A stretch of 46,822 bases of DNA from Bacteroidales bacterium (GTDB lineage: Bacteria; Bacteroidota; Bacteroidia; Bacteroidales; Tenuifilaceae), in contig JABFRB010000033.1 in NCBI GenBank assembly GCA_013141385.1, positions 1-46,822 on the forward strand. Reading direction: 5' to 3'. Each line of letters starts with the position of its first letter. Position 1 is the first letter of the stretch. The position numbers and the translations under genes are program-made. The notes beneath the pieces are model-generated. The model saw only the letters and a list, made by a program, of their open reading frames with translations, was not told where the DNA came from and ran no database searches. Below, in pieces: positions 26,416 to 46,518 of the stretch.

Positions 26416-27135
26416 CTATATTGCATTGTTTATATAAACTTCGTTTTCCCCACTCTTAAAATATGAAAAATCATATTTGCTAATTACCTCTAGAAAACTC
26501 TTCGAGGAATCTTTTTTATATCGTTCATGGAGTTCAATAATAATGCAACGTGTTTTAGGAATCCAATTCTCAAAATTGCTTTCAAATAGCTCCTTTTCAG
26601 CACCTTCAATATCAATTTTAAATATATCTATTATATTTAAATTGTTTTCTTTTATTATTTCATCGGGTGTAATTGATTTTACAGACCCTTTGATGTTTTT
26701 ATTTTGAGAATTTTCTGTGGTTTCAGTCATGAAACCCCAATGACCTAAACCGCTGTCAATAATATTAAAAGATTGATTAGGAAGATTAGATAACGCTCTT
26801 TGATAGCAATGTACATTAGAATAGTTGCTAATATTTATTTCAAGTAAACTGAAGTTAGAGTCCTCCGGCTCAATACATATAATTTTACTATCAGGGTATT
26901 TATTTATAAAATATGTTGCAGCTAGGCCGATGTTTGCCCCTGCATCGATAATAGTTGTTGGATAAAAATCTAACTTTATTTCGTACTCTTTTAAATTAAA
27001 AATTTGATGGAAAGTATGCAAATCGGTTGTTCCATTTCGAAGATAAATAGGATAAAATATTTCAGGTACATTTACACGGCAGCCAGAATACGGTATCCCT
27101 GGAATTTCTATATTTTTAATAATTTCAGTTTTCAT
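26416..27135 (-). CDS. FkbM-family methyltransferase
   Basis: The 239-residue SAM-dependent methyltransferase has motif I IDAGANIGLAATYF, IICIEPEDSNFSLLEINI with the ribose-binding acid, and a post-motif DIFKIDIEGAEKEL typical of FkbM. FkbM proteins mostly O-methylate sugars or hydroxylated polyketides. It is the last gene of the cluster, just before the terminator. The most likely role is O-methylation of a sugar or hydroxyl in the product. Confidence 0.88.
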   Translation of the reverse strand: MKTEIIKNIEIPGIPYSGCRVNVPEIFYPIYLRNGTTDLHTFHQIFNLKEYEIKLDFYPTTIIDAGANIGLAATYFINKYPDSKIICIEPEDSNFSLLEINISNYSNVHCYQRALSNLPNQSFNIIDSGLGHWGFMTETTENSQNKNIKGSVKSITPDEIIKENNLNIIDIFKIDIEGAEKELFESNFENWIPKTRCIIIELHERYKKDSSKSFLEVISKYDFSYFKSGENEVYINNAI

Positions 27136-27313
27136 ATTTTCCTTTTAATCGAAATTCGCAAGCCAAAATACATGTAAAAATTAAAATGTTTTAAACACAT
27201 TTAATAGTTGAAATAATCGATTGTATTTTTCACGTTTCATGAGGGCAAACACTTAAGTGCTAAATAATGATTTACCTTCCGATTTATTTAGAAAATTGAT
27301 TAACAACCGTTCA

Positions 27314-28174
27314 TCAACTCTCTTCAATTTCTTTCAACAAGGCTCTATAATGCTCCGAAACGTGAACATTCGAAAACTCCAAAAATTTTCTATAATGTTT
27401 AATTGGTAAAATACCACACCATTTTATTTCGGGATGGTGTTGTGAAAATATTTTATTATTATCTAAGAAGGACTCCATTTTCTTTTGTTCGTCTGCTTTT
27501 GGATGCCAAAGATGGTATGATAATAGTTCCTTGCCCATAATAATTCTACGACCTAATAGCTTCTGCAATCTATATGCAAACTCAATATCATCAGGGCCCC
27601 AAGTAGCAAAGCATTCATTGTACCCATTTATACTACGGGCATCCTCCAAATAACACGAGGAATTATTTCCAATGAAACATTTCCACCTGTCTTCTTCGCC
27701 AATAATATTATACCATTTACGAACATCGCATTCAGTGTAAGAGTGTTTTCCATCCTGAATATCGTTTAAAAATTTTGCAATATTGTAATTTTTGGGTACT
27801 GAATCCTCTTGCATGTAATATGAATATCCCGATATGGCGAAATTTCTTCCCATCTCTTTGTATTTTACATCATATAATTTGAGATAATCGGGAGTAAGTA
27901 CCATATCCGAATCCACAGATACTATTATTTCTCCTTGTGCCTTAGCTATACCTTTATTTCGAGGTTTTGAAAAACCTGATTTCTCAGGATTACGGTGATG
28001 GACGATATTAAAGGAGAAATGCAGAGACTGAAGTTCATCCTCAACAATATAATCGCTTCCATCATCAACTATTATTACTTCAAAATCCTTGAATGTTTGA
28101 TTTTCAATGGAGTATAATGTATTTTTTAATAACTCAAGTCTATTATTAGTTATTATTATTATGGAAAATCTCAT
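27314..28174 (-). CDS. Family-2 glycosyltransferase, galactosyltransferase C-terminal type
   Basis: The 286-residue GT-A protein starts SIIIITNNRLELLKNTL, has the nucleotide-binding VDDGSD, the metal-binding DxD motif in VSVDSDMVL, and the WGPDDIEFAYRL motif with the catalytic acid typical of the galactosyltransferase C-terminal family. It is related to the gene at 40013-40939. It probably transfers one sugar to the product. Membrane helices are absent, so it is cytosolic. Confidence 0.87.
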   Translation of the reverse strand: MRFSIIIITNNRLELLKNTLYSIENQTFKDFEVIIVDDGSDYIVEDELQSLHFSFNIVHHRNPEKSGFSKPRNKGIAKAQGEIIVSVDSDMVLTPDYLKLYDVKYKEMGRNFAISGYSYYMQEDSVPKNYNIAKFLNDIQDGKHSYTECDVRKWYNIIGEEDRWKCFIGNNSSCYLEDARSINGYNECFATWGPDDIEFAYRLQKLLGRRIIMGKELLSYHLWHPKADEQKKMESFLDNNKIFSQHHPEIKWCGILPIKHYRKFLEFSNVHVSEHYRALLKEIEES

Positions 28175-28214
28175 ATTCTAATAATTTAAAAAAATTAAAC
28201 ACTTATAATTTAGA

Positions 28215-29723
28215 CTAACTTGAAATTAAAGTTGTTGTAAACTTTATTTTTTCGCTCTTACATAGTGTTTGTGTGATATTTCTACCTGAAACTGCGCATT
28301 GGCAAATTCCACCTCCCTGGTTTGTCCATTGGCTTATTAGATAAAAATTATCAAGCCCAGGAAGTGTTTTTGGGAATTGGGTTAATATCACCTGTGGGGT
28401 TGGATACCATCCTTCAAAGCTCCCTTTCCAATTGTTTGTATAACGTTTAACGGTCACTGGTGTAGAGATGTCAACCATTTTAACATTAGCTTTTATATTT
28501 CCATAATAATCATCTAAAATATCTAAAACAATATCACTTACTCTTGTTTTTTCCTTATTATACTTTTCTCTATCATTTTGATATAAATTATTCCAATATT
28601 CGTAATTATCTGTTCCAACAGATACCGATATGGTTGTATTCTCTTCACCATTAAGGGTAGGGTCGAAATTAAATACTCTCACCATAATTGAGTTACATTC
28701 CGTTTTATCATCTACAGTGAAGGGTTTCTTTGCAAAAATCTGTGTCATATTTATTTCTTCTGTTACGATTTTTCTTGAAACTCCATATGCAATAAATACA
28801 TGTGACGGGAATAGTTGGAATTCTCTATAAAATTTATCGATTTTCTCATCTGTGTATTTTCCTTCAAGCATATTATAAATTGTATCGTAACCATCGCCAC
28901 ATGAGATTACAATATCAGCATTTATTTCTGTTCCATTTGCCAGTATAATACCATATGCCTTATTGTCCTTTACTAATATTTTATTTACGCGAGATTTATA
29001 ATAAATTTTACCTTCAAGTTCAGTAAACCGCTTTTCGAGTAAATTTGAGATGTTTTGTGAGCCACCAATTGGATAACCAGCGCATCTTTTATCAATCCAA
29101 CCTAATGTAATTGCAAGAAATAGGATTGAACTGTCGGGAAGGAAAAAACTCATTAAGGTTTTTTTCAGTAGAGGGTTTTTACATTGATCAGCAAAATTAC
29201 GAATTGTTTTTCCCCCGTATTTTGTCATGAGCACAGCGAAAGGAGCCAACTTCAAAAACATAATTGTTTTTTCAAAAAAGGAAAGTAGATTTGGGGCTTT
29301 TAATACTTCAAAGTCAAGTTTTTTACACTTTCTGGCAAAATAAATTATTTTGTTGATGACTTCAATATCTTCAGGCGCTTTTTCAAGTAGTTCTTTCTCT
29401 AGCTTATCGATATTTGAATAGATATTGATGAAGTTTTTGTTTTCATCGCTAACTTTAAGAAATACATCATGATCCACAAACTTTAGTTTATCCATTGGTA
29501 GCAGTTCCTGCCACACTTTGTAGTAATCTACAACGTTGCGCGATCCAACAAACCAATGTACACAGAGATCAACTAAGTAGTTTTTTCTTTTCCAGGTTGT
29601 ACAAACTCCGCCTGGTATATCGTGAAGTTCGTAAATTTCAGTATCAAATCCATTCATTTGAAGGTACGAACCAGTGCTCAGTCCAGATATTCCTCCACCT
29701 ATAATAATTACTTTCTTTTTCAT
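28215..29723 (-). CDS. Phytoene desaturase-like FAD-dependent oxidoreductase
   Basis: The 502-residue flavoprotein begins with the FAD-binding fold VIIIGGGISGLSTGSYL followed by GFDTEIYELHDIPGG, the CrtI/retinol-saturase layout. The C-terminal part ends with YLISQWTNQGGGICQCAVSGRN, the second FAD-binding segment. Such enzymes (in)saturate or isomerise polyene or polyisoprenoid chains. In a cluster with a ketosynthase pair and dehydratase, desaturation or isomerisation of the acyl chain is likely. No phytoene synthase or other carotenoid gene is nearby, which argues against a carotenoid role. Confidence 0.85.
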   Translation of the reverse strand: MKKKVIIIGGGISGLSTGSYLQMNGFDTEIYELHDIPGGVCTTWKRKNYLVDLCVHWFVGSRNVVDYYKVWQELLPMDKLKFVDHDVFLKVSDENKNFINIYSNIDKLEKELLEKAPEDIEVINKIIYFARKCKKLDFEVLKAPNLLSFFEKTIMFLKLAPFAVLMTKYGGKTIRNFADQCKNPLLKKTLMSFFLPDSSILFLAITLGWIDKRCAGYPIGGSQNISNLLEKRFTELEGKIYYKSRVNKILVKDNKAYGIILANGTEINADIVISCGDGYDTIYNMLEGKYTDEKIDKFYREFQLFPSHVFIAYGVSRKIVTEEINMTQIFAKKPFTVDDKTECNSIMVRVFNFDPTLNGEENTTISVSVGTDNYEYWNNLYQNDREKYNKEKTRVSDIVLDILDDYYGNIKANVKMVDISTPVTVKRYTNNWKGSFEGWYPTPQVILTQFPKTLPGLDNFYLISQWTNQGGGICQCAVSGRNITQTLCKSEKIKFTTTLISS

Positions 29724-29758
29724 TAAATTCTTTTTTTAAGGTGATGCATATAATTTGT

Positions 29759-30442
29759 TTAATCAACTTCAAGATGTAATGCGGTAAAAATCATTTCGTT
29801 TGAGATGTAATATAGACCAGCAAATGTGGCATTATAATAAAATTGCTTGTCCAATTGTTTATAGAGTCTTATTGAAAAGGTGTTGTCATCCAATATCGAA
29901 CAACATACATCTTTGAAAAAAAGCATCTTTTGTGTAATTTGAAATTGCAATTTGTAGAAAGCTTCTTTGGCACTAAAAAGAATTGTGGCTTTTTCCATTT
30001 GCTCTTGTTCCGAGTATTTTTTCAGAAATAATAATTCTTCGTTTGTGCATAAGGTGTTAAAATATCGACTTTTCATTTTGCTTATATGCTCAATATCAAT
30101 GCCAATGCTTTTATATTTAAAATTTAAGCCTAAAACAACTGCACAATAGCTGCTTGTATGAGCAATACTGCCTTTTACTGTTGATGGGAATAAAGGTAAT
30201 TTATGCTCATTGAAAAGAATCGGAAAATTATAGATCTGCAAATTTTTAAGAGCCCTTCTTGCGCAAATTCTTCCTGTGATAAATTCGTTTTGTCTTTTTG
30301 TTGATTCCCCTGAAATCAAATCACTCTCTTTAGGGTGAATTTCATTATTGCAGCCTGATTCCATCAACGTAGAATAGCTCATTATTGGCGACTCTTCACA
30401 AATCAAATCTGGTGGAACGATTAATGGAAAGTATCCTGTCAT
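29759..30442 (-). CDS. 4'-Phosphopantetheinyl transferase (EntD/Sfp-like)
   Basis: The 227-residue enzyme has the group II PPTase motifs: GRICARRAL (residues 58-66), GSIAHTSSY, GIDIEHI with Mg ligands Asp116 and Glu118, and FSAKEAFYK with Glu160 and Lys164. It installs phosphopantetheine on a carrier protein. The pattern is of the EntD type, used for secondary-metabolite carriers. Its 5' codon overlaps the stop of the upstream methyltransferase gene (4 bp). Its presence implies a dedicated carrier protein for this pathway, yet none is found in the window. Confidence 0.92.
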   Translation of the reverse strand: MTGYFPLIVPPDLICEESPIMSYSTLMESGCNNEIHPKESDLISGESTKRQNEFITGRICARRALKNLQIYNFPILFNEHKLPLFPSTVKGSIAHTSSYCAVVLGLNFKYKSIGIDIEHISKMKSRYFNTLCTNEELLFLKKYSEQEQMEKATILFSAKEAFYKLQFQITQKMLFFKDVCCSILDDNTFSIRLYKQLDKQFYYNATFAGLYYISNEMIFTALHLEVD

Positions 30443-31518
30443 AAACTATTCAGAAATTCCTCAGGGTCAGTAAGGTTTAATAACATAACCCTGTCTTTTT
30501 CTAATTCATTATATGTTAGTTGCTCAATTTGATCGATGGAATAATTAAGGCAACTTTCTGGAGTAGCTTTCTTTATTATACCCAAGCCAAAGTCACAGTC
30601 AAGGGTTATAACTTTCAGATCCTTATGTGTTGAACGAATATTTAAAATTGTTTTCCAAACGTCACCAGTCCATGCATATCCATAAGGATTAATGCCAATT
30701 GCTTTTACCTTCTCACATGCCTCTTCATAGACTGTTGCAGGTGTTTCAATAATTGGTGATATCGGATTGCAATCGTGCATAATAATAAGTCCATCAGGCC
30801 TTAAATAGTTAAGGCAATTTTGAACGTCCCTTAATGCTTGATGATAATTATGGGCTCCATCGATAAATGCTAAATCTATTTTTCTTTTTTCAAAAATATT
30901 TTTGTTGTTTTTAAAAAACTCATCACTCTTTAGTTGGAAATAAAATCGATTTTCAGATAGAGATTGTTTAACCTGTTTATTGGGCTCAATTGGATCAATC
31001 CCAATTACAAAGGGAGCTTCTATTTCTACAAAATTCTCACCGTTTGATACGCCAATTTCAAGATAAGTGTTGACGTTAATTGCCTTTATTGCTCGTTGAA
31101 TAACGGTTCTTCTTAATATTGGGCTATAGTATTCTTTGTTCTTGCCACTCTCCAAATCATTTAATACTTTATTTAACGTGTAGATTAAACTGCCATTCTT
31201 GATAAAACTAATAAAATTGGGGCTTATATCAATAAATGAATCAGATGGTAGGATATTTTGCATTTCCTTTGTTGCAACAACGATAATGGTGGTATTCTTC
31301 TTTTTCAGCAAAGAAATTTTATCGTTAAGATTTTCGTCGTTGCCCTTAAGTAGTACTATGATAGCAACATCAAAAGTTGATGTGTCATTTATTTGATTAC
31401 TGTTTGTGATAAGTGAATAGATACGGTTTTTATTCTCCAACATTTTAAAAATCGACTGAAGCACTGACAGAATCATTGGATTTATTGTTGTGTCCTGATA
31501 GATGATTGCAATATTCAT
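30439..31518 (-). CDS. Class I methyltransferase with an N-terminal accessory domain
   Basis: The 359-residue protein has a C-terminal class I methyltransferase domain (about residues 145-300): TYLEIGVSNGENF, FVIGIDPIEP, KIDLAFIDGAHNYHQALRDV and PDGLIIMHDCNP, of the Methyltransf_24 type. Residues 1-115 form an alternating alpha/beta segment (NIAIIYQDT, DVAIIVLLKGN, TTIIVVATKEM) that looks like a flavodoxin- or receiver-like fold I cannot assign. The stop overlaps the PPTase start. It probably methylates the product or a biosynthetic intermediate; the target is unknown. Confidence 0.75.
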   Translation of the reverse strand: MNIAIIYQDTTINPMILSVLQSIFKMLENKNRIYSLITNSNQINDTSTFDVAIIVLLKGNDENLNDKISLLKKKNTTIIVVATKEMQNILPSDSFIDISPNFISFIKNGSLIYTLNKVLNDLESGKNKEYYSPILRRTVIQRAIKAINVNTYLEIGVSNGENFVEIEAPFVIGIDPIEPNKQVKQSLSENRFYFQLKSDEFFKNNKNIFEKRKIDLAFIDGAHNYHQALRDVQNCLNYLRPDGLIIMHDCNPISPIIETPATVYEEACEKVKAIGINPYGYAWTGDVWKTILNIRSTHKDLKVITLDCDFGLGIIKKATPESCLNYSIDQIEQLTYNELEKDRVMLLNLTDPEEFLNSL

Positions 31519-31628
31519 TTTTTCCCTTGTTAATTTTTATAATGAATTCAGACTAAGAATTAGGATTGGCATAAAAAATATTTGAAAATAAATGTTTTGT
31601 GTATTTCAGATTATTAGACTTTTATCGA

Positions 31629-31636
31629 CAAATTTA
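31629..31636 (-). promoter_or_regulatory. Candidate internal -7 box ahead of the methyltransferase/PPTase genes
   Basis: On the minus strand TAAATTTG matches TAnnTTTG. It lies in the 217-bp gap before the methyltransferase (start 31518), one of the few gaps in the cluster. No matching TTG is seen at the usual -33 distance. Confidence 0.3.
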
Positions 31637-31735
31637 TATTCTTTATTTTTCAGATAGGATGCTTGATTGATAAGTTTTATAATTTTAACTTACGGTGCAA
31701 ACCTCCAATCTATTTCACCTCTTTTTAGAATAATA

Positions 31736-32173
31736 TTAACTCTTTGAGATGGGTTTTTGCTTATTACTCAAAAGAAGTATATAAGGTATTAAAAAAAGGA
31801 TAAAGATGACCGTAAATCCAGTAATTTCATATACAAATGATTTGTCAAAATTTCCTGTATGTGGTAATAGTATTGTTACAGGTAAATGCAAAAACCATGT
31901 GAACATAAATAGGAAATATGCATTAAGAAGAATTTTGTTTTTTTTCATCAACTGTTTTTTGTAATAAAGCAAAAATAGGCTGTATACAGTTATCAATGCT
32001 GATAAAAAGAAATTTGTCCATTGAATTGAAACAAGTACTATTTTGGGAGCATCAGGAATATATGAAAACCATTTGAACATATCAATTATAAAAAAATGCA
32101 AAATACCAACAAGTAAGGTAATACATAGAGCTGTAGTAATTAATATGTTAATAAGTTGATCTTTTGATATCAT
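31736..32173 (-). CDS. Small four-TM membrane protein, paralogue A
   Basis: The 145-residue protein has four predicted TM helices. Near the first loop it has HFFIIDMFKWFSYIPDAP, which matches HLFVPSIHKWFYYIPDTP in the next gene: the shared pattern is HxFxxxxxKWFxYIPDxP. I recognise no named family. Adjacent and similar, A and B are a tandem duplication. They may help export or membrane-bound steps of the pathway. Confidence 0.65.
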   Translation of the reverse strand: MISKDQLINILITTALCITLLVGILHFFIIDMFKWFSYIPDAPKIVLVSIQWTNFFLSALITVYSLFLLYYKKQLMKKNKILLNAYFLFMFTWFLHLPVTILLPHTGNFDKSFVYEITGFTVIFILFLIPYILLLSNKQKPISKS

Positions 32174-32235: not shown

Positions 32236-32646
32236 TTATGCTTTTTGCCAATAACTTATAAAAGAGATTGCGAAACAAACCATGGGAATTATAAACATAA
32301 TAAGCAAATAGTATCTTAAATAAGGAATCATTAGTCCTTGCGGGATAAATATCTGATAGGTTAACCTAGCTGTCCATAAAACAACTAGTAATAAACAAAT
32401 TAACCTCATAACTGGAGTGTTAGTTCTGAATAAATGATAGGAACATAAGGATAGGACGCCGAACAAAATAAGTGAAAGTGAAAGGAAAAAATTGGTTGCT
32501 GTAATTGCATTTTTTAATTCTAATGGAGTATCTGGAATATAATAAAACCATTTATGTATGCTTGGTACAAATAAATGCCAAATACCAAAACAAAGTGTAA
32601 TGACACCGCCAGAAATGAAACAGATTCTTTGAAAAAGAGTTTCCAT
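32236..32646 (-). CDS. Small four-TM membrane protein, paralogue B
   Basis: The 136-residue protein has four predicted TM helices and carries HLFVPSIHKWFYYIPDTP at residues 26-43, closely matching paralogue A and then ATNFFLSLSLILFGVLSL versus WTNFFLSALITVYSLFLL. The conserved His, Lys-Trp-Phe and Pro-Asp sit at a membrane boundary. Function unknown. Confidence 0.65.
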   Translation of the reverse strand: METLFQRICFISGGVITLCFGIWHLFVPSIHKWFYYIPDTPLELKNAITATNFFLSLSLILFGVLSLCSYHLFRTNTPVMRLICLLLVVLWTARLTYQIFIPQGLMIPYLRYYLLIMFIIPMVCFAISFISYWQKA

Positions 32647-32657: not shown

Positions 32658-33485
32658 TTATATTAAGTTGATAAATAGAAATATACAGCAGATTGTAATT
32701 AGCGAAAGAAGCACTGGTAATAGTTTGTATTTAAAACTTTTAAAATATCTAGTTTGTGGTGTATATGTTAACCAAAGAAACAGTTTAATTGATAATATTA
32801 TGGCAAATAAAGTAATAAAAAATATGTAATAGCCAAAATATTGTTCTTTATAAAATGAATAATAATAGATATTAAAAAATAAATGAAAGATTGGAAAGCC
32901 AGTATAAAAGAAAATAATAAAAGCCTCAGAAAGCACATTTAACTCACGTTTAGAAAGCCACATTTTCCAATTCATTGCAAACGGAGCATAAAAATGCCAC
33001 AGTATTAAAGGTATTAAACAAAGAATACAAATTAGCATTAATATATTCTCAAATGAAGTAGATGTCCAGTTTGGTACATGAAATGAAATAAGATCTATTT
33101 TGTATTTATAAATTTTGTAGAGATACAAGAGAGAGAGAAGCATTGACACAATGTTCATACAAGCAAGCCAACCAATGATTTTTCTTTTTTTAATAAAGAA
33201 AAAATTTATTGCCCAGGCACTTCCATACAATCCATTTATTATGGCAAAGGGAAGAAAAAAGATAAGGTTAAACCGAATTACATTTTGCTCTTGTGCCAAT
33301 AGCAATAAAATATAGGCAGCCATATAAAAATAGTAGAGCCCAGAAATTATTGATGATGTGCGGGATGCAAAAAAAATAATAATATTCGGAATTTTTTGTA
33401 TTTCAAATGTTTTAACAGGCCTACAATACAGTATTCCCGTTAAGGCAGTGATTAAAAATAAAACGCATAAAATAAATGAATCCAT
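32658..33485 (-). CDS. Polytopic membrane protein, possibly distant relative of paralogues A and B
   Basis: The 275-residue protein has about seven or eight TM helices. Midway it contains LWHFYAPFAMNWKMWL, reminiscent of the IWHLFVPSIHKWFYYI motif of the two small paralogues, suggesting a fused or ancestral form. It starts 30 bp after the radical-SAM gene. No conserved catalytic pattern is visible. A role in membrane transport or in making a membrane-bound intermediate is possible. Confidence 0.6.
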   Translation of the reverse strand: MDSFILCVLFLITALTGILYCRPVKTFEIQKIPNIIIFFASRTSSIISGLYYFYMAAYILLLLAQEQNVIRFNLIFFLPFAIINGLYGSAWAINFFFIKKRKIIGWLACMNIVSMLLSLLYLYKIYKYKIDLISFHVPNWTSTSFENILMLICILCLIPLILWHFYAPFAMNWKMWLSKRELNVLSEAFIIFFYTGFPIFHLFFNIYYYSFYKEQYFGYYIFFITLFAIILSIKLFLWLTYTPQTRYFKSFKYKLLPVLLSLITICCIFLFINLI

Positions 33486-38699: not shown

Positions 38700-40016
38700 T
38701 TATTTGCTTTGAAAAAAGTCTGTTTTATATAAGTCACAGCATCTTCGGCAAATGGGGAATAACGCTGTGTCTAATTTTTCTCTAAAATCAAGGAATTTTT
38801 GATTATTCCAAATATCAAAAACACCTTGTTGGTTGATATTTCCAATTGTATAATCTGGAAAACAGGAGCAAGGTACAATATCACCGTTAGATTCAACCCA
38901 AATAGAATTTTCAATGTTTTTGCATTTATTAATTCCTATTCGATTCGGATTTGAATAATATTCCCTAACTTTTTCATCTGTATTAACTGGATATGGAAAG
39001 AATCGAATGTTAGGATCATTTTCTTTTTTAATTGTATTAATTTGTGATAATAATACATTCATGTCAGTTTTATCCTGATTTTCGGGATAGTAATCGATTG
39101 AAGTCGATTTTGCATTAAATAATTTATTGAGCATTTGTTTGTAGCCATCTTTTTCTTTTTCAGAAAAAAACATCATAAATTGAAACTCAAGAAATTCTGC
39201 TTTTAATTCTTTCTTTAATGCAACAAGGTCGGTAAGTTTATTGTAATTATTTTCGTTTATAACACAATTAATTGTAAGAATTGGCCTTCGTGTTTTAATC
39301 TTTTGAAGTTCTTTTATTGCACTAATAAGTTTGGAGAACGCTTTATTATTTCCTCGGACGGTATTATGAGTTTCTTCCAAACCATCAATTGATATAATAA
39401 GCATATCAACTTTATTGTCCAGAATAGCCTTTATGTTATCATTTAAAAGATAGCCATTGGTATTAATAATTGTAAAAAAATTCTTTGACTTTAAGTATTG
39501 TATGATTTCCCAAATATTGGGATGAAGAAGAGGCTCTCCTCCCCAGAGATATACTGGTGGTCTTCCAAAAATAGATATAGAATCAACAATTTTTTTAATA
39601 GAATCAACAGATAAATAGTGTATGGCTGATTTATCGCGTTGCCAACACATGCTACATTTTAAATTGCAGTTGTTTGTAAGCGAAAGCCCTATCATTCTAC
39701 TTGGGTAGGAGGCAATATATTTATCTGCTTCGAATCCAGTTTTATTATATGTCCAAGACCCTAAAATGCCATTCTCATTATCTTTTGAAAATTCAATTTC
39801 AATTTTTGATTTTTCTGGTAATAGTTCTTCTTTTAGTTGGATTGTTAAACTAAAGGTATTGTTATTAAATTCTGTAATTTTTTTTGTTTCGGATAAACTT
39901 CCATTATTACTAAATTTATAAAGCAATTGTATATCATTTAATTGCCTTCTATTATTAATAATGAAATTGAAAATAACACTATCATTGCCAATTACAGTAT
40001 TATTCAGCGTTATCAT
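38700..40016 (-). CDS. Radical SAM/SPASM protein with N-terminal beta domain (second)
   Basis: The 438-residue protein has an extra N-terminal domain (about residues 1-95), rich in short beta strands with no Cys, which may be a binding module. The radical SAM core follows with Cys117, Cys121 and Cys124 (TNNCNLKCSMCW). The SPASM tail is clear: NKCKNIENSIWVESNGDIVPCSCFPDY and PICRRCCDLYK. A single enzyme of this shape can form C-C or C-S links or dehydrogenate. It overlaps the glycosyltransferase gene by 4 bp, so they are coupled. The function may be sugar or peptide modification. Confidence 0.85.
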   Translation of the reverse strand: MITLNNTVIGNDSVIFNFIINNRRQLNDIQLLYKFSNNGSLSETKKITEFNNNTFSLTIQLKEELLPEKSKIEIEFSKDNENGILGSWTYNKTGFEADKYIASYPSRMIGLSLTNNCNLKCSMCWQRDKSAIHYLSVDSIKKIVDSISIFGRPPVYLWGGEPLLHPNIWEIIQYLKSKNFFTIINTNGYLLNDNIKAILDNKVDMLIISIDGLEETHNTVRGNNKAFSKLISAIKELQKIKTRRPILTINCVINENNYNKLTDLVALKKELKAEFLEFQFMMFFSEKEKDGYKQMLNKLFNAKSTSIDYYPENQDKTDMNVLLSQINTIKKENDPNIRFFPYPVNTDEKVREYYSNPNRIGINKCKNIENSIWVESNGDIVPCSCFPDYTIGNINQQGVFDIWNNQKFLDFREKLDTALFPICRRCCDLYKTDFFQSK

Positions 40017-40939
40017 AATTTCCCCGATTTTAAGTTTATATAGTCAAAGGGTTGAAATTTAAACTGATTTGGGTGTTTTTCAGCCTCAAAAAGTTTTCCT
40101 GCCATTTTGTAGCTAAATTCTTCTAAACTAGCACCACCGCTGGTAAAATTTATATAACCTAATATTTCTTCGTTTCCTGGATATTTTTTTTGCAAGTATT
40201 TAAGATTTCGTGCTGTATCCGATAACATTTGGTTTCTGTTTTTCTCAACATCGAGGTGGTAATTAATGATGTGAGGACAATATTTGAATTCGTACTTGTT
40301 TTTATAAATACGGTATCCCAATTCGATATCTTCGGGTCCCCATCTATAAAAATTAGCATCGAATCCCCTTGCATTGACCAAATTTTCTTTACTTATTGAA
40401 GAATTTCCTCCTGTAAAGCAAATCCATGCGATGTTATTCAGAGTTTTATCAAATACTCGTTCCACCATATCCAGATACAAATCTTTTTTTATGTATGTTT
40501 TAATACTTTGCATACCCGATTCGAAATTTGCATAAATTGGATTGGTAACAATTTTAAAATCTTCCACATTTATTCTGTAAATTCTTCCGAGAATAACGCA
40601 ATTACTATCCTGTTCATGCTCTTTTAAATGATATTCAAGAAAATCAGGAATTGCAATCAGATCGTCATCAATAAAAACTATAATACTGCCATTAGACATT
40701 TCTATACCTTTGTTACGGGCAAACGCTTGGCCTTTGTTTTCCTGATGATGAACCTGAACATTAAAATTAAACTTGGTGCTATCAAGAAATTCTTTAGTTC
40801 CATCATTTGAACCATCATTAATTACTATTACTTCAAATAAGGATTTATCAAGATTTTGATAACCCAGACAGAACATGGTGATCATCAATCGATCAAGTTT
40901 ATTAAATGTTGAAATAATTACTGAGATTTTGGGTTTCAT
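40013..40939 (-). CDS. Family-2 glycosyltransferase, paralogue of 27314-28174
   Basis: The 308-residue GT-A enzyme has ISVIISTFNKLDRL, VINDGSN, the DDD motif in VFIDDDLIA and the acceptor/catalytic motif RWGPEDIELGYRI. The same WGPxDIExxYR motif occurs in the other glycosyltransferase of the cluster. The extra C-terminal part (about 40 residues) is rich in Lys and aromatic residues. It probably attaches a second sugar, or the same sugar at another position. Confidence 0.87.
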   Translation of the reverse strand: MKPKISVIISTFNKLDRLMITMFCLGYQNLDKSLFEVIVINDGSNDGTKEFLDSTKFNFNVQVHHQENKGQAFARNKGIEMSNGSIIVFIDDDLIAIPDFLEYHLKEHEQDSNCVILGRIYRINVEDFKIVTNPIYANFESGMQSIKTYIKKDLYLDMVERVFDKTLNNIAWICFTGGNSSISKENLVNARGFDANFYRWGPEDIELGYRIYKNKYEFKYCPHIINYHLDVEKNRNQMLSDTARNLKYLQKKYPGNEEILGYINFTSGGASLEEFSYKMAGKLFEAEKHPNQFKFQPFDYINLKSGKL

Positions 40940-40947
40940 ACTTAAAT

Positions 40948-41412
40948 TTATTTTCTAAAAACATGAATAAATACTCCTTGGCACAGAAGGTGATTATTAG
41001 TAAAAATTGTTGACTTTGTTTTATACATATCAGTTGTATTGATAAGCATTTCATTCTTGATGCTCAAATTATCATAAGGTGTATAGCTATTGTTTATTTC
41101 AAAACCCTGAACCCCTGCTAAAAATCCTCTTCTTTCTGCCAGATCAAAAGACAAACGTAGTAGCACCTCTGATAACTGTCCCATTAATTCAATAATGACG
41201 AATAGTGGTAATGTTCCTGTTTCTGTTAGATAATAAGGACAAGTTTGTGTAATATTTTTTATTCCATGAATGCTTTTGCCCTTTTCAAAGTCTAATACCT
41301 TATCAACAAAAATGAAAGGGTATCTTTGATTGATAATCTTGTAAATGTTAAAATTTTTAATTTCCAACGGATAATCAATTGAGTTTTGATTAGGATTAAC
41401 TGTAAATTCCAT
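40948..41412 (-). CDS. ApeP-like hotdog dehydratase, non-canonical
   Basis: The 154-residue hotdog protein shows INQRYPFIFVDKVLDFEKGKSIHGIKNIT, like FabZ-type dehydratases, and LPLFVIIELMGQLSEVLL with Glu. The HFP motif that holds the catalytic His of FabZ is missing: the sequence CPYYLTETGTLP matches the layout of ApeP, the 3-hydroxyacyl-ACP dehydratase of aryl-polyene clusters. I call it a dehydratase in the ApeP group, which would introduce double bonds in the chain. The gene is between glycosyltransferase and BtrH-like genes with 8- and 6-bp gaps. Confidence 0.75.
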   Translation of the reverse strand: MEFTVNPNQNSIDYPLEIKNFNIYKIINQRYPFIFVDKVLDFEKGKSIHGIKNITQTCPYYLTETGTLPLFVIIELMGQLSEVLLRLSFDLAERRGFLAGVQGFEINNSYTPYDNLSIKNEMLINTTDMYKTKSTIFTNNHLLCQGVFIHVFRK

Positions 41413-41418
41413 GATTTT

Positions 41419-42447
41419 TTAGGATAGCATTATACCTCCTAGTATATTTAAAGCCTTCTCTTCAATTTCAATAATGGCTTCACAATGTTTGCATGCCTTT
41501 TCTAGTTTTTTACTTATATCTTGCGTGTAATTTTTCTCAATATCTAAAATTGAATTATACAAAGATTCCCATTCCAGTTGCGACTTATTGAAGTCTTCTA
41601 TAACACTATTAATTTCGTTGGTCTTAAGAATTTCTTTTGATTGTATGAGAAAATCAATAAACAAGCCTCTATTTGCAACTGAAGAGTTATCATTTCTTTT
41701 AATTACTGATTTAATATGCACAATAAAACTTTGAAATTCCTCTGTTGGATATTTATTTATATTTTTCAGAAATGAAATGAATGCTTTTAAACCAGCCAAA
41801 CCTCTCGTATTTCCTGGAGTATAAAGCATAGATTGTACGTTTTTAACGATAGCCCATTTTATGCACTTTTCTAATGGAAATATTTTTTCAGGTAAAGCAA
41901 TATCAAACCAAAAGTTACTAAGAGAAGCGTTTGTTTTAGAAAAATCGCATGCTTTAATTAGTTCTTTAGCTCCAATACTTACATGTTTATTGGAATAGTA
42001 ATCGTATGCATTAAATGAATTCTTCTCATTATTGCAACTATAAAGTAGAATAGGGAGATGTTCATAATATGAATCAAAAGCCTTCAAATTAAAGGTTACA
42101 ATTGGTTGAGATTTCAATAATAAATCACCGATATATTGCAAAAAAAGTTCAGGATCAGGTTCTGTTTTATACCATGCTTTAATATTCAAGTGAGCAAGTA
42201 AGTCTTTGAAAAATATATTATTAACTGTACTAATTCTAAAGGTGGATTCATTAGTTTGCTCAAAGTTAAATGATAATCCACAACCAAGACCAAAGATCAT
42301 TGATTCTGATAGTTCTATTTTATCAATGTCTGGCACTAGTTTTAAATAGTAACTTGTATAATCATATATTGCTCCAATATCAGGACATGAATATGAACCA
42401 ATAAGGCATTTTTCTATTTTATTTAAATTATTCATATCATTTAGCAT
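41419..42447 (-). CDS. BtrH-like acyltransferase homologue (second, divergent)
   Basis: The 342-residue protein resembles the BtrH N-terminal domain family: a Cys21 (GSYSCPDIGAIYDYTSYYL) lines up with the cysteine of the neighbour, followed by ESMIFGLGCGLSFNF, the (F/G)G(I/L)GxGLxFNF signature. The following His is absent (Pro22 instead). The C-terminal part has a predicted coiled, charged tail (EKNYTQDISKKLEKACKH). It starts directly after the BtrH-like gene (zero gap). The pair may be a heterodimer in which this one is structural or has another donor or acceptor preference. Confidence 0.7.
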   Translation of the reverse strand: MLNDMNNLNKIEKCLIGSYSCPDIGAIYDYTSYYLKLVPDIDKIELSESMIFGLGCGLSFNFEQTNESTFRISTVNNIFFKDLLAHLNIKAWYKTEPDPELFLQYIGDLLLKSQPIVTFNLKAFDSYYEHLPILLYSCNNEKNSFNAYDYYSNKHVSIGAKELIKACDFSKTNASLSNFWFDIALPEKIFPLEKCIKWAIVKNVQSMLYTPGNTRGLAGLKAFISFLKNINKYPTEEFQSFIVHIKSVIKRNDNSSVANRGLFIDFLIQSKEILKTNEINSVIEDFNKSQLEWESLYNSILDIEKNYTQDISKKLEKACKHCEAIIEIEEKALNILGGIMLS

Positions 42448-43590
42448 CTATTGTATTTCTTTGTATAATAGAGAAATGTTTCTTTCTTCCTCATCAATAA
42501 TGTTTTGTAGTAATTTTTTTGTGTCTGAATCATTTACAAAATCAAAATTTTCAGCTAAGACCTTTGCTCCAATTATGTCCATAAGTAATGTCCACTTTTC
42601 AGACAATCCCAAATAATTAGCGCCTATTGAATTAAAAGTTTTGTTGCCATTTATCTTGGCTGATTCTTGTAGGAATTTTCCAAAAGGAAATCGATATGCT
42701 CCCCATCTGTTTGCAAACCCGCGTGATAGCATTGAGGATACAAAAAAGGTCTTTTTTAACATATCCTTATCCGGGATTATATCTGACATGGTTTCCAAAT
42801 CGCTAAAAAACTGTTTTATGCCTTTTAGACCTTGGCTATACTTTCGCCCATCAGTATCCTGTGTATACATATTGTTATCCATCATACGCAAGCAGCATTT
42901 GGTTATTCCTTTAGTTATGAGATAATCAATTGGTAAAGATTTTTCGGGAACATCAAAAACAACCGTTTCATTAAATACTGGAGGACAAGCTTTCTCCTCA
43001 CTTCGTAGTTTCTTTAAGAGGGAGATTGGTATTTCAATTGGTGCTAAAAAAATGGTATAAATTATTATTGCTGATTCCTTAATATCATCATATCCGATTA
43101 CTAGGTTTTTTGAGCCAGAAGTGATAAAATCTATAAATTCAGGAACTTGTATTTGATCAAATAGATTCTTAAGAAAAGGCATGTCATTTAAGGGGCCAAT
43201 TTCTTTCTTATATAGGAATAGATCTACAACATCTATTAAAACAGGCTGTTTGTTATCAATAAATTTTTTTGTTTGCTCCCAAGCTACATCTTTATTTGTG
43301 AACCGGTAGACATGCGGCGTGATATTAAATTCATGACAAATATCTACATAGGTAACGTTTGAGCCCATAATAACCCAAAAAGGTAGTTTTACCGGAGGAT
43401 TATTGCATTTAACTGTGACATTAACTGGTATGTAATTAAAATTTATTCCACCCCCAATTCCAAAACACATATAGGGCGATATATTTGTTCCATAATAATG
43501 TAATACGTCTCTAATTGATGTTACATGACAGTCAAACCAAGCTTGGTGAGTTTTATATAACGAATCAAGCACAAATCTTTTCGGTTCCAT
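42448..43590 (-). CDS. BtrH-like acyltransferase with DUF4872-like C-terminus
   Basis: The 380-residue protein has the BtrH N-terminal domain: Cys21-His22 in WFDCHVTSIRDVLHYYG, then YMCFGIGGGINFNY, then PVLIDVVDLFLYKKE and VIGYDD. The C-terminal half is like DUF4872 (about residues 225-380, with SRGFANRWGAYRFPFGKFLQESA). BtrH moves the ACP-bound side chain in butirosin onto an amine of the aminoglycoside, with a cysteine nucleophile. The second His that normally precedes the IVIGYDD strand is Asn here. The transfer of an acyl chain to an amine is the best guess. Confidence 0.82.
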   Translation of the reverse strand: MEPKRFVLDSLYKTHQAWFDCHVTSIRDVLHYYGTNISPYMCFGIGGGINFNYIPVNVTVKCNNPPVKLPFWVIMGSNVTYVDICHEFNITPHVYRFTNKDVAWEQTKKFIDNKQPVLIDVVDLFLYKKEIGPLNDMPFLKNLFDQIQVPEFIDFITSGSKNLVIGYDDIKESAIIIYTIFLAPIEIPISLLKKLRSEEKACPPVFNETVVFDVPEKSLPIDYLITKGITKCCLRMMDNNMYTQDTDGRKYSQGLKGIKQFFSDLETMSDIIPDKDMLKKTFFVSSMLSRGFANRWGAYRFPFGKFLQESAKINGNKTFNSIGANYLGLSEKWTLLMDIIGAKVLAENFDFVNDSDTKKLLQNIIDEEERNISLLYKEIQ

Positions 43591-43613
43591 TTTATATTTA
43601 TAAATAACAAAAT

Positions 43614-44696
43614 TTATATTAATTGTTTGTTTTTAATTTTCCAACTATATAATGATATGATTGAAAATAGGCAAATCCAGAAAACTATTAGGGCAAATTG
43701 CCCCACATACGATCCAAAAGAATCATTATAAATCATAATGGAACGTAGTAAGTTAACAGTTGGTGTTATTGGAATAATTAATGATAGTTTACTAAATATT
43801 GGAGAACTATCAACAGGGAAAAACGCCCCGCTGAAAAATAACATTGGCATGCTTATGTAATTCGAAAGACTCACAGCACTACTAAAAGAGTTTGAAATAC
43901 TAAAGATCAAAAATCCCATTAGTGTTGCTAAAATAGTAGTCAAGAATAGCATTAAGCATAAAGAGTAAATATTTATATCTGCTAGCCCCGTTTTAAATAA
44001 AAACTTATTTACCACGAAAATAAGTAATACCTGTAGAATAATTAATAAAAACCTGCTTAGTAGATAACTTGTTAAAAATGTATCAATACGTATTGGGGTT
44101 ATAAATAGTCGCTTTAATATGCCTTTTTCCCTGAAGTTAGCAAGTTCGGTTCCAATACCAAACAGACAGGTATTTAGAATTGACATTATTATTATTCCTG
44201 GAAAGATAAAAATTGCAAAATTTGGTATTTTAATTTTTAAGGTTTCTTCCTTAAATCTCATTTCCTGTTTTTTATAAGTCGAAACCTGTAAATTTATTTT
44301 TTGGATTAAAGGATTAAAAATAAACTCGTAGCCTTTAACCGTATAAAGTTTAAGATCAATATAATCCTTTTTATAGTTTATATTTATAACCTGAAATCCT
44401 TTTTTAATTTGTTTTGATATATAGTATATATCATCTACATTATTTTTGTTCTTGGGTGCTGTTTCGAATGATTTTATTGAAAAATTACTGCTGAGATATG
44501 ACTTATAATCAGTGGGAAGTTCATCTTCTGAAATAATCACTATGTTTTCACCACTCATTATCGCCGGAACCAAATAGCGAAATGATTCACCAATGATTAG
44601 ATAAATAATTACGGGAAAGAGGGTTAGTAGTAATAAATTTTGTTTTTCCCTAACAAAAAGTAACAGATTATATTTAAATAGTTTAAGTATATTCAT
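43614..44696 (-). CDS. ABC-2 type permease
   Basis: The 360-residue permease begins with a cytosolic amphipathic stretch and TM1 (about residues 19-38), an extracytoplasmic domain (residues 45-165), and five further helices with FREKGILKRLFITPIRIDTFLTSYLLSR, the coupling segment of ABC-2 exporters. It works with the ATPase encoded just upstream (7-bp gap). It is likely a homodimer that exports the product or an intermediate. Confidence 0.9.
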   Translation of the reverse strand: MNILKLFKYNLLLFVREKQNLLLLTLFPVIIYLIIGESFRYLVPAIMSGENIVIISEDELPTDYKSYLSSNFSIKSFETAPKNKNNVDDIYYISKQIKKGFQVININYKKDYIDLKLYTVKGYEFIFNPLIQKINLQVSTYKKQEMRFKEETLKIKIPNFAIFIFPGIIIMSILNTCLFGIGTELANFREKGILKRLFITPIRIDTFLTSYLLSRFLLIILQVLLIFVVNKFLFKTGLADINIYSLCLMLFLTTILATLMGFLIFSISNSFSSAVSLSNYISMPMLFFSGAFFPVDSSPIFSKLSLIIPITPTVNLLRSIMIYNDSFGSYVGQFALIVFWICLFSIISLYSWKIKNKQLI

Positions 44697-44703
44697 TGTT
44701 TAA

Positions 44704-45621
44704 TTAATCAAATTTTTTACCAGTAAGGTTTAAATAGACATCTTCTAGATTTGCTTTCCTAACGGTTATGTCCTTAACCTGTAAATTAAGTATTTCAGGA
44801 AGTTCAACTATAAATTTCTCCAAATATTCCTTCTTATCTTCAATATAAATAATTAGGGTTGAGTTTATTCGAATATTATCAATATATCCGGGTGTTTTTT
44901 TAATTGTTAGAATATCTATGTCATTATCAATAATAAACTCTACAACCTTAGTGTTTTCATATTTTTTCATGAAACCGGCTAAGGTATTATGTGCAATAAT
45001 CCGACCCGAATCTATAAATGCTATTTCATCGCACAACGCTTCGGCTTCATCGATATAGTGGGTAGTAATGAGTATTGTCTTTTTTTTAGCTTTATCTTGC
45101 TTGATTAATTGCCAGACATTTCTTCTTGATTGAATATCAAGTCCAGTTGTTGGTTCATCCAATATCAATATTTCGGGGTCATTCATTATACACATAATAA
45201 GATAAAGTTTCTGTTTTTGTCCCCCAGAAAGGTTCTTTATTAATGTACTCTTTTTGCTGTTTAATTCAAGAATGTCAATTAATTCGTTAATATCAACATC
45301 TGTTTTGGGGTATAAGGACTTAATATAATCAATAGATTCGCTTACCGTAAGATTTTCGAAAAAATTGCTTTCCTGAAGTTGAACTCCAGTGGTTTGCATA
45401 ATTTTTCTTCGATTTTTTTTAATGCTTAGCGAATTAAAGTAAACCTCTCCTTGATTAGGCTTCATTAATCCACACATAATATAAATTAGTGTAGATTTTC
45501 CCATTCCATTTGGTCCAAGCAAACCAAACACAGTACCTTTTTCTATGGTAAATGATATTCCGTGTAAAATTTTGATTTTCTTGAATGATTTATGAATATT
45601 TTCAACTCGAATAGCGGGCAT
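44704..45621 (-). CDS. ABC-2 type exporter ATPase
   Basis: The 305-residue ATPase has Walker A LLGPNGMGKSTL, the signature NLSGGQKQKL, Walker B ILILDEPTTGLD and switch His in TTHYIDEAEALCD. The C-terminal ~90 residues are typical of drug- and antibiotic-exporting ABC-2 ATPases. It drives the adjacent permease. Placement at the start of the operon, right after the MBL gene, suggests early expression of self-resistance or export. Confidence 0.93.
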   Translation of the reverse strand: MPAIRVENIHKSFKKIKILHGISFTIEKGTVFGLLGPNGMGKSTLIYIMCGLMKPNQGEVYFNSLSIKKNRRKIMQTTGVQLQESNFFENLTVSESIDYIKSLYPKTDVDINELIDILELNSKKSTLIKNLSGGQKQKLYLIMCIMNDPEILILDEPTTGLDIQSRRNVWQLIKQDKAKKKTILITTHYIDEAEALCDEIAFIDSGRIIAHNTLAGFMKKYENTKVVEFIIDNDIDILTIKKTPGYIDNIRINSTLIIYIEDKKEYLEKFIVELPEILNLQVKDITVRKANLEDVYLNLTGKKFD

Positions 45622-45645
45622 CTTGATTTATATCTAGTTTGTGAT

Positions 45646-46518
45646 TTATATGTTGCATATTCTTTTCATTTCATTAATGAAGCAGTCATTCCCATGTCCT
45701 TTAATAATTATATTTCCTGGTTTAAAAATATGCTTAATCAATTGATTGTCATTATCTGAAATGAATCGGTCTTTAATTAAACTATCATAGGATTCTGAAT
45801 TATTATCTTCTAAGATATCACCTACGCAAAACGAGGAAAAATTCTTGTTTTGTATTTCCAGAATAAGATCGCCTTCAGTATGTAAATTTAAATTGTAAAG
45901 AATTAAATTCGAAGATAAATTCTTGGTTTTATTTTCAATTATTAAAAATTTGCCTTGATTAACTTTATCAATTATTTGTGAGTACATATTATTATTGTTT
46001 ATAATAATATTGGCAATTGCGCGTACTTTTGAATAATTATCAAAATATTTATAGTTATCATTTATTGTGGGTTCAAATTCAGCTTTTCTTTTATGATCGT
46101 TCATCTTTTGAAACAAGATGTTTGTAAGAGAATCAATCGGTTTTTCTTGTGATAATGAATATTTTATTGCCTGATCAAAATAGTCAATTGAACGATAGGT
46201 CTCATATGACATGATTATTGTTGCATTCTTAAAGAAATTTATTGATCCGCAGTGATCGAAATGCCAGTGAGATAGAATAATATAATTAATCTGATCCGGT
46301 TCAATCTCCAACTTCTTTAGTGCGTCTAGTAGATTCTTTGAGTTATATGGAAAACTCGTATCGAATAGAATATTGAGATTTGCATTTTTATCGTGAATGT
46401 ATAATGATGATGATGCAAAAACATGTCCGCTTGTACCTTTTATAAGCCTGATGATATTACATGAAGTATTTTCTTGCAGTTCTATACTTGTTTCAGCGTC
46501 TACAGTTACTTTCTCCAT
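45646..46518 (-). CDS. Metallo-beta-lactamase-fold hydrolase
   Basis: I choose the ATG at 46518 (MEKVTVDAETS). A longer frame from 46551 (MPFFQPLIRIT) overlaps the transposase end and is made of its sequence, so it is not likely to be native. The enzyme has the HxHxDH motif SHWHFDHCGS and further ligands His in NLHTEGD, Asp in CVGDILE and His in KGHGNDC. Of the MBL family, it resembles lactonase-like enzymes. In the cluster it may hydrolyse a thioester or lactone to release the product, or protect the host. The first gene of the operon. Confidence 0.85.
   Translation of the reverse strand: MEKVTVDAETSIELQENTSCNIIRLIKGTSGHVFASSSLYIHDKNANLNILFDTSFPYNSKNLLDALKKLEIEPDQINYIILSHWHFDHCGSINFFKNATIIMSYETYRSIDYFDQAIKYSLSQEKPIDSLTNILFQKMNDHKRKAEFEPTINDNYKYFDNYSKVRAIANIIINNNNMYSQIIDKVNQGKFLIIENKTKNLSSNLILYNLNLHTEGDLILEIQNKNFSSFCVGDILEDNNSESYDSLIKDRFISDNDNQLIKHIFKPGNIIIKGHGNDCFINEMKRICNI

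Follow-up and report, generated by a model that had tools for sequence, protein, structure and literature searches.

A 46,822-bp contig of a Bacteroidales bacterium of the Tenuifilaceae (GenBank JABFRB010000033.1, assembly GCA_013141385.1; contig C33, the window) carries at positions 26416-46518 (the window part) a set of biosynthetic genes that apparently makes up about two thirds of a larger cluster. The other genes lie at the end of a second contig of the same genome, C5, and we lean towards the reading that both parts form one cluster of about 34 kb, which an insertion sequence (IS) of the IS982 family would have split over two contigs. Genes of both halves recur in a Spirochaetaceae metagenome-assembled genome (MAG), in another phylum. 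Judging from the sequences, this looks like a real, conserved pathway of the type II fatty acid synthase (FAS)/polyketide synthase (PKS)-like kind, larger than the 20-kb stretch. An earlier note had taken that stretch as the whole cluster, and in this it was incomplete: the competent BtrH-family protein, the acyl carrier protein (ACP), the intact dehydratase and the thioesterase (TE) are encoded on C5. Taken alone, the window is therefore misleading, for the ACP gene and the gene of the transferase that is likely to be functional lie on C5. In the anatomy of the cluster, we have high confidence.

A cluster probably split over two contigs

The window part contains 21 genes, all on the minus strand, annotated with Pfam and NCBIfam family models, the scores being read against the model cutoffs. 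The nineteen genes in one direction counted earlier thus stand as to the direction and not as to the number. The gaps were described correctly as mostly below 30 bp or overlapping (12 of 20); four measure 30-62 bp and four are longer (190, 122, 217 and 178 bp). The enzyme classes named from the sequence are all found by Pfam and NCBIfam on the window proteins. No ACP was called among the window cluster proteins, and a search of the window with the C5 ACP gave no hit at E<=1.

The terminal repeat of the IS982-family element lies 4 bp upstream of the first cluster gene, which encodes a metallo-beta-lactamase (MBL)-fold hydrolase. The element runs off the contig end, and the rest of the pathway is most likely on another contig. 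A search of the genome with BtrHc, a BtrH-family protein of the window part, detected two further BtrH genes near the end of C5. There (locus L005, C5 70000-87489), a gene for an UpxY-type antiterminator is followed by nine cluster genes and then by the IS terminal repeat, 125 bp from the contig end. The nine genes encode, in order, crtI1 (CrtI-like), a ketoreductase (KR1), a cobalamin-type radical S-adenosylmethionine (SAM) protein (B12rSAM), ACP, BtrHa, BtrHb, a flavoenzyme without an NCBIfam match (FAD), the dehydratase FabZ1 and a YbgC/MenI-like TE.

The terminal repeat occurs at 12 places in this genome, six right and six left ends, all within 121-369 bp of a contig end. The flanks of the C5 left end and the C33 right end both carry the 5-bp sequence TACTA, the only pair of the 36 (6 x 6) with this sequence in common, and these two ends have at most 2 bp in common with any other IS end. 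In the empty site obtained by joining the contigs, the TE stop lies 13 bp into the MBL gene, a normal stop/start overlap; the MBL start was taken at 46518 and not at the upstream GTG, which fits this overlap.

A counterpart in a Spirochaetaceae genome

Named genomes were scanned with a two-row B12rSAM alignment, and 80 loci were listed (at least 235 relatives). Because the scan relied on two B12rSAM patterns, clusters without a B12rSAM gene would be missed. Fifty of the listed loci encode no other cluster protein (E<=1e-6), 28 encode one to four types, and the two richest, L116 and L105, 10 and 14, respectively, cross-matches between paralogues being included in these counts. The best locus, L105, is 19 kb of a contig of Spirochaetaceae bacterium isolate MAG4. 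It starts with MacB-type exporter genes, a LolA-like protein, an outer-membrane-like protein (both calls being readings of the translations, the LolA-like one without an NCBIfam match) and a relative of the small membrane protein mem2. These are followed by MBL (29% identity), B12rSAM (57%), FabZ2 (29%), a protein in which the glycosyltransferase GT2a and the radical SAM/SPASM enzyme are fused (49% and 47%), the N-deacetylase PIG-L (39%), the chain-length-factor-like protein (CLF, 31-36%), the ketoreductase KR2 (45%), the ketosynthase (KS, 48%), crtI1 (54%) and, at the contig end, the start of KR1. The gene of the fused protein overlaps the PIG-L gene, and the fusion suggests that GT2a and the radical SAM enzyme act on one intermediate.

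Searched with a BtrH profile, the same MAG yielded a second contig, C241 (locus L193), with the end of a KR1-like gene (54%), ACP (66%), BtrHa (28-32%), BtrHb (49-50%), the flavoenzyme (31-32%), FabZ1 (59%), a further radical SAM protein of the B12 type and, at the contig edge, a fragment resembling FkbM (33% to the window FkbM over 61 aa). Since about 205 of the approximately 248 KR1 residues are found across L105 and L193, both contigs seem to be broken within one KR1 gene. Altogether, 17 of the 30 cluster query proteins, nine from the window and eight from C5, have Spirochaete relatives with 28-66% identity, leaving out FkbM (61 residues) and the ABC ATPase, whose match falls on a MacB-type gene. 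The Spirochaete keeps the window order FabZ2-GT2a-rSAM-PIG-L-CLF-KR2-KS, then crtI1-KR1, and L193 keeps the C5 order after KR1, ACP-BtrHa-BtrHb-FAD-FabZ1, with B12rSAM located instead beside MBL on L105. The presence of genes of both halves in this genome supports the predicted C5-window join, and the level of identity across two phyla suggests that selection has maintained the pathway. The co-occurrence of the gene set in other genomes, by which the earlier note proposed to judge the cluster, was thus found, in this one MAG.

The same MAG contains, on contig C74 (L194, 1873-2936), BtrH-like matches on two overlapping open reading frames (ORFs), about 1 kb from a KS match.

Conservation of catalytic residues

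The KS keeps the ACASG, HGTGT and GHALGA motifs, and the CLF lacks the Cys-His-His triad in both species. FabZ1 keeps GHFP, which FabZ2 has lost in both species. The core of KS, KS-like, KR and hotdog proteins described earlier for the window is all present, with the qualification that the KS-like protein has no triad and the hotdog protein no FabZ catalytic His. By these motifs, the arrangement typical of type II PKS (KS-CLF), an active-site KS with a triad-less partner, a separate ACP and a KR, appears to be present. Among the 57 PDB matches of the CLF, only 9s5h chain C has its best stretch across the whole protein (5-358). The predicted CLF structure had a mean predicted local distance difference test (pLDDT) score of 44 and was not used.

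Across 29 DarH-like ORFs, the His and Asp of the BtrH family and an EGTGG stretch are present in all 29 and the Cys in all 21 ORFs that reach its site, the other eight being cut short before it; we take the Cys, His and Asp to be the catalytic residues. BtrHb retains Cys, His, Asp and EGTGG, as the sole one of the four BtrH-like proteins of the cluster, and so does its Spirochaete partner. BtrHc keeps the Cys, BtrHa and BtrHd keep the Asp, and the His is gone from all three; in BtrHd, a Cys sits one alignment column off. Thus, the two BtrH-like proteins of the window belong to the family, as had been proposed, and both lack the His that is invariant in the DarH-like ORFs.

The usual motifs are present in PIG-L, the 4'-phosphopantetheinyl transferase (PPTase), MBL, the KRs and the three radical SAM proteins, and presumably have their customary functional meaning. 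One of the two SPASM-type enzymes proposed for the window has a Pfam SPASM domain; the other, rSAM2, has only a Cys-rich C terminus. KR1 and KR2, both of the short-chain dehydrogenase/reductase (SDR) family, score best as 3-oxoacyl-ACP reductases. Against the NCBIfam HpnJ model, B12rSAM scores 104.6 bits and its Spirochaete relative 112.6 (cutoff 577.6); for the latter, BchE is the best model, at 119.6 bits.

Proposed pathway and product

The set of proteins can be arranged into a putative pathway. The PPTase would prime the ACP, and the KS/CLF pair, the two KRs and FabZ1 would extend and dehydrate the ACP-bound chain, with FabZ2 as a non-catalytic partner. None of the cluster proteins scores best as an enoyl reductase, so the chain should retain its double bonds if these are not reduced by a flavoenzyme, a KR-like SDR or some housekeeping enzyme. 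Isomerisation or desaturation of the chain may be the role of the CrtI-like and FAD enzymes. Glycosyltransferase family 2 (GT2) enzymes and PIG-L are together a usual route to a free amine on sugars of the N-acetylglucosamine type; here, GT2 would add an N-acetyl-hexosamine to a putative lipid acceptor, and PIG-L would then deacetylate this sugar. Rearrangement or cyclisation of the sugar or the chain would fall to two radical SAM proteins, the GT2-linked SPASM enzyme and the HpnJ/BchE-like one of the cobalamin type. Precedents come from hopanoid cyclitol-ether formation, where HpnI (glycosyltransferase), HpnK (deacetylase) and HpnJ (radical SAM) act in series (PMC12583986), and from ring formation or rearrangement by the few cobalamin-dependent radical SAM enzymes that are not methylases (PMC13142503). 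BtrHb might then transfer the chain from the ACP to the amine thus freed, or else to a hydroxyl. This would parallel butirosin synthesis, in which BtrH is described as an ACP:aminoglycoside acyltransferase with a papain-like BtrH_N domain (PMC10318531). TE and the MBL hydrolase would release or edit the product, and the ABC exporters would remove it.

The combination of GT2, PIG-L, a BtrH-type transferase and ACP is best read as pointing to a glycolipid with an amino sugar that carries an acyl chain attached by BtrHb. The acylated amino-glycoside-type product that the earlier note had suggested is retained, in the form of an acylated amino sugar, as the best interpretation of these genes. More tentatively, and with the chances clearly against it, the product might be a new lipid class common to Bacteroidota and Spirochaetota: a polyunsaturated or radical-cyclised acyl chain made by a KS pair akin to those of ladderane loci and amide-linked by the BtrH enzyme to an amino sugar or a ring-contracted aminocyclitol from the GT2/PIG-L/cobalamin-type radical SAM series.

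Such a pathway would link ladderane-like FAS II enzymes, the chemistry of which is still unsettled, to BtrH acyl transfer and an amino-sugar module. It would also offer a tractable enzyme set (one KS pair, one ACP, one competent BtrH and one GT2-radical SAM fusion) for probing how radical SAM and CrtI-like enzymes act on ACP-bound chains.

Alternative readings

Several observations weigh against a single split cluster with this product. Six other left-right pairs of IS ends also match over 5 bp (TATTA or TGTTA); the element seems to favour T-N-N-T-A target sites, and the target duplication alone is therefore moderate evidence for the join. In addition, the IS may stop transcription between the halves. 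The second genome is a single MAG, the only one found, in which L105 and L193 were not seen joined, and the two contigs contain no separate-gene relatives of TE, the ABC-2 pair, BtrHc, BtrHd, rSAM2, mem1, mem3, the methyltransferase, PPTase, crtI2 or GT2b. The Spirochaete BtrHa has Cys and His, which the Bacteroidales protein lacks, so that the degeneracy of BtrHa is not conserved. The SDR family of KR1 and KR2 also covers enoyl reductases, and the HpnJ score, far under the cutoff, makes the chemistry of B12rSAM only a lead. To the predicted product logic we give somewhat better than even chances. The C5 end and the window could also be two separate clusters that both end by chance in copies of one IS, given that six right and six left ends would allow other joins. 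We see only a slim chance of this, considering the unique 5-bp match of the flanks, the natural gene overlap in the empty site, the complementarity of the halves and the joint occurrence of their genes in the Spirochaete.

The product might also be of another kind. A radical SAM pathway to a ribosomally synthesized and post-translationally modified peptide (RiPP), with lipid tailoring, would account for the SPASM enzyme and the MacB/HlyD-type export. It is highly improbable: the gaps longer than 100 bp (five in the window, two on C5) contain only two ATG ORFs of at least 22 aa, of 22-23 aa (short TTG/GTG ORFs are also present in the first scanned gap), and the SPASM enzyme of the Spirochaete is fused to GT2, with its gene overlapping that of PIG-L. 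A variant of aryl-polyene or flexirubin pigment synthesis is an unlikely reading as well, despite the presence of KS, a degenerate KS, KR, a hotdog pair, BtrH and an ABC exporter, with FlxB and DarH among the NCBIfam matches below cutoff; in a dialkylresorcinol (DAR) cluster, too, a BtrH-like gene lies next to an ABC ATPase gene (PMC3949708). It is opposed by the matches listed for the cluster and efflux proteins (Pfam on 21 window and four efflux proteins; NCBIfam on the 21 window proteins, three of the four efflux proteins and nine C5 proteins), which include no aryl starter genes (ammonia lyase, chorismatase, AMP ligase) and no DarA or DarB, and by PIG-L, three radical SAM enzymes and sugar genes, which are extra. 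Moreover, the KS is nearer to FabF (261 bits against PDB sequences) and 9s5h chain B (254) than to 6kxd (216), cited as a typical KS-CLF in PMC10698177, or to the actinorhodin KS 1tqy (195). The RiPP, aryl-polyene/flexirubin and capsule readings were set aside.

A ladderane- or polyunsaturated hydrocarbon (PUHC)-type lipid pathway, in which CrtI-like enzymes would desaturate the chain, radical SAM enzymes would cyclise it and the sugar genes would supply no more than a head group, has a better prospect than these, a doubtful one all the same. The composition of the cluster is near that of anammox loci, for which the available text of PMC4790861 (Table 2) gives ACP, FabZ, FabF, a non-canonical FabF, phytoene desaturase, SAM radical enzymes, SAM methylases, FabG and a glycosyltransferase. 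The Omnitrophota locus L116, which encodes a TIGR04072 ladderane-type B12 radical SAM protein (435 bits, cutoff 360), also encodes a 40% relative of B12rSAM and weaker relatives of KS, CLF, KR, CrtI, ACP and FabZ. It contains, further, two KS matches, two weakly KS-like proteins, an FlxY/PaaK-like ligase (below cutoff) and a radical SAM/SPASM-like gene. In a 35-row KS tree (supports given as paired values), the Bacteroidales and Spirochaete KSs are sisters (100/100) and group with the two L116 KSs (98/98); the CLFs of both species group with one L116 KS-like protein (99/93), and the second such protein of L116 falls outside this group. When the CLFs are omitted, support for the KS grouping is 94/94, 96/96 or 77/75, depending on the L116 row dropped. 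These joins are on long branches, for which the tree tool issued a warning, and kinship of the KS with ladderane-type KSs, likely from the tree, is not firm. Further points against a ladderane-type pathway are that B12rSAM is not a TIGR04072 protein (84.5 bits, cutoff 360), that no PaaK-type ligase was called in the cluster and that BtrH and PIG-L are not among the genes given for ladderane loci in the available portions of PMC2649909 and PMC4790861; the former says that kuste3351 carries domains resembling polysaccharide deacetylase. Lacking a TIGR04072 protein, the cluster is not filed as a ladderane cluster, and the acylated amino-sugar lipid remains the reading that we prefer.

Distribution

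The genome samples overlap, and each search scores no more than a limited initial selection; the lack of a match does not, therefore, prove that a gene is absent. No close copy of the cluster was found in samples of 27-395 Bacteroidota genomes per query. BtrHc was matched in one of 27 genomes of the family (its own) and in three of 395 of the phylum, its own and two marginal (E about 1e-4); BtrHb in 70 of 395 genomes of the class, its own included (best other 116 bits, self 815); and CLF in 335 of 393 of the order, its own included (best other 55 bits, self 773), the listed matches covering mostly the first half of the CLF and lying on ORFs mostly of FabF length. KS matches at E<=1e-80 are present in nine of 385 genomes of the phylum including its own, the best other at 41% and 293 bits (self 931). 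Of the eight other loci, the three examined (L079-L081) have FabF beside FabG, L079 with an ABC ATPase match in addition; L083, from the CLF search, has a KS and a FabZ. B12rSAM was matched at E<=1e-40 in 92 of 247 genomes of the phylum including its own (best other 40%), and further cluster relatives were detected at only one, L099 (the ABC pair), of five other loci examined (L099-L101, L103, L104). In the family of genome G040, which belongs to the same phylum, one of 21 genomes, itself, was matched at E<=1e-65. The BtrH profile matched one of four genomes, the Bacteroidales genome, at five places, and a crtI1 alignment one of 26 genomes of the kin of the Spirochaete, itself. On plasmids, crtI1 has two matching records (25-27%) and CLF 21, of which the 15 listed are at 24-32% and are ketosynthases where annotated. 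A first scan of named genomes with CLF alone found nothing. The cluster looks rare and may have moved between phyla. No described cluster of this kind was found in the literature searched by title and the start of the abstract.

In a 4200-bp contig of Bacteroidota bacterium BIN5 (L099/L163) and 12 more listed loci, a B12rSAM relative lies near an ABC exporter ATPase that is 33-38% like that of the cluster; ABC ATPase matches of at least 150 bits occur in 13 of the 80 listed loci. On this sequence context, the ABC exporter ATPase is a second recurring, predicted context of the B12rSAM subfamily.

Gene content and neighbouring genes

Table 1. Features of the window in the order of transcription, from the IS end through MBL to FkbM and the efflux genes
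Feature	Coordinates	Strand	Evidence
Right end of IS982-family element	46523..46822	-	runs off contig; transposase C-terminal piece 46530-46775
MBL-fold hydrolase	45646..46518	-	PF00753, HWHFDH; 29% to Spirochaete copy
ABC exporter ATPase, DrrA-like below cutoff	44704..45621	-	PF00005
ABC-2 exporter permease	43614..44696	-	PF12698
BtrHc, degenerate BtrH/DUF4872 protein	42448..43590	-	PF14399, PF16169; Cys kept, His and Asp lost
BtrHd, degenerate BtrH/DUF4872 protein	41419..42447	-	PF16169; without invariant His
FabZ2, FabZ-like hotdog protein without catalytic His	40948..41412	-	NCBIfam FabZ below cutoff; His loop changed
GT2a glycosyltransferase (GT2)	40013..40939	-	PF00535; 49% to N-terminal part of Spirochaete GT2-rSAM fusion
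Radical SAM/SPASM enzyme	38700..40016	-	PF04055 and PF13186; CNLKCSMC; 47% to C-terminal part of Spirochaete GT2-rSAM fusion
PIG-L N-deacetylase	37790..38509	-	PF02585; PHMDDE, HNDH; 39% to Spirochaete copy
CLF, degenerate KS/chain-length-factor-like partner	36588..37667	-	PF00109 N part; triad lost; 31-36% to Spirochaete CLF
KR2, FabG-type ketoreductase	35827..36576	-	PF13561; best NCBIfam 3oxo_ACP_reduc; 45% to Spirochaete KR2
KS, ketosynthase with intact Cys-His-His triad	34572..35816	-	PF00109/PF02801; ACASG, HGTGT, GHALGA; 48% to Spirochaete KS
rSAM2, radical SAM protein	33516..34544	-	PF04055; CNGKCAFC; C-terminal Cys cluster
mem1, membrane protein	32658..33485	-	no family
mem2, small membrane protein	32236..32646	-	no family; Spirochaete relative 33-35%
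mem3, small membrane protein, mem2 paralogue	31736..32173	-	no family; 32% to mem2 over 94 aa
SAM methyltransferase (Methyltransf_24)	30439..31518	-	PF13578
4'-Phosphopantetheinyl transferase (PPTase)	29759..30442	-	PF17837, PF01648; motifs GIDIE, KEAFYK
crtI2, CrtI-like flavoenzyme	28215..29723	-	PF01593; best NCBIfam carot_isom/crtI_fam, below cutoffs
GT2b glycosyltransferase (GT2)	27314..28174	-	PF00535
FkbM-family methyltransferase	26416..27135	-	PF05050, NCBIfam fkbM
MacB/FtsX/HlyD-type efflux genes (4)	21706..26119	-	Pfam; possible export part of cluster

The transposase piece has a weak IS982 match (20.9 bits, cutoff 130), and the MBL protein matches NCBIfam lactonase and beta-lactamase models only far below their cutoffs. 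The four efflux genes are on the same strand as the cluster, 296 bp beyond the FkbM end, and their ATPase is 44% identical to an ABC ATPase adjoining the Spirochaete cluster; the set probably belongs to the cluster, on weak evidence, the family being generic. In G+C content, the window part (0.31) and the C5 part (0.33) are below the adjacent stretches (0.34-0.35) and the efflux genes (0.36).

Elsewhere in the window, separate plus-strand genes at 11311-15637 include one for a protein resembling VimE (160 bits, cutoff 440) and one whose product weakly matches an aminoglycoside 6'-N-acetyltransferase (25 bits, cutoff 140). On contig C7 (L102, 1-12891) of the same genome, a second cut cluster encodes four proteins matching the B12rSAM query and, judging by the translations, a glycosyltransferase, an MBL-fold protein, a ThiF/E1-like protein, a TonB-dependent receptor and a NusG-like start. 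Contig C43 of this genome (L082, 10759-11739) has a BtrH gene of the DarH-like type, and within 20 kb of it none of the 30 cluster proteins has another relative (E<=1e-5).

Comparison with known systems

The earlier view of a coherent biosynthetic cluster unlike the described types is supported: for the described types that have a feature open to such a test, a defining one is lacking, and the cluster fails to show those tested for the aryl-polyene, flexirubin and HpnJ types. In comparison with cispentacin synthesis, the KS matches AmcF, the hotdog proteins AmcE and the ACP AmcB, all below cutoffs; AmcG (CYF) and AmcH are not among the models listed for the cluster proteins, and the model library may not include them.

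The polyene subgroup of the highly reducing type II PKS clusters (PMC10698177) has the same KS with a KS-like partner, KR, dehydratase and ACP, whereas the KS described here is nearer to FabF and the cluster has no aryl starter genes and includes radical SAM and sugar modules. Flexirubin/dialkylresorcinol clusters (PMC3949708) share the BtrH-like gene beside an ABC transporter gene and the ACP and KS in the cluster, and differ in DarA and DarB, which are not among the listed family matches of our cluster proteins. Butirosin synthesis (PMC10318531) likewise has a BtrH_N-family protein, and ours could pass an acyl group from the ACP to an amino sugar; the present cluster, however, encodes four BtrH-like proteins, three of them with conserved residues lost. 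The hopanoid HpnI-HpnK-HpnJ module (PMC12583986) has the same series of glycosyltransferase, N-deacetylase and radical SAM protein, but here the deacetylase is PIG-L, the GT2 is EpsD-like and B12rSAM is far below the HpnJ cutoff, and a link to hopanoids is not apparent.

The closest known kind is the ladderane-type FAS II clusters. The ladderane gene set (FabF and non-canonical FabF, FabG, FabZ, ACP, CrtI-like and radical SAM) is co-present in the Bacteroidales genome, if C5 and the window are one cluster, and also in the Spirochaete. The ladderane/PUHC FAS II loci of Kuenenia and Desulfotalea (PMC2649909, PMC4790861) have the same FabF pair, FabG, FabZ, ACP, CrtI-like enzyme, several radical SAM proteins, SAM methylases and a glycosyltransferase; compared with these, the cluster described here is without a called TIGR04072 protein or PaaK-type ligase and adds BtrH, PIG-L, FkbM and ABC/MacB exporters.

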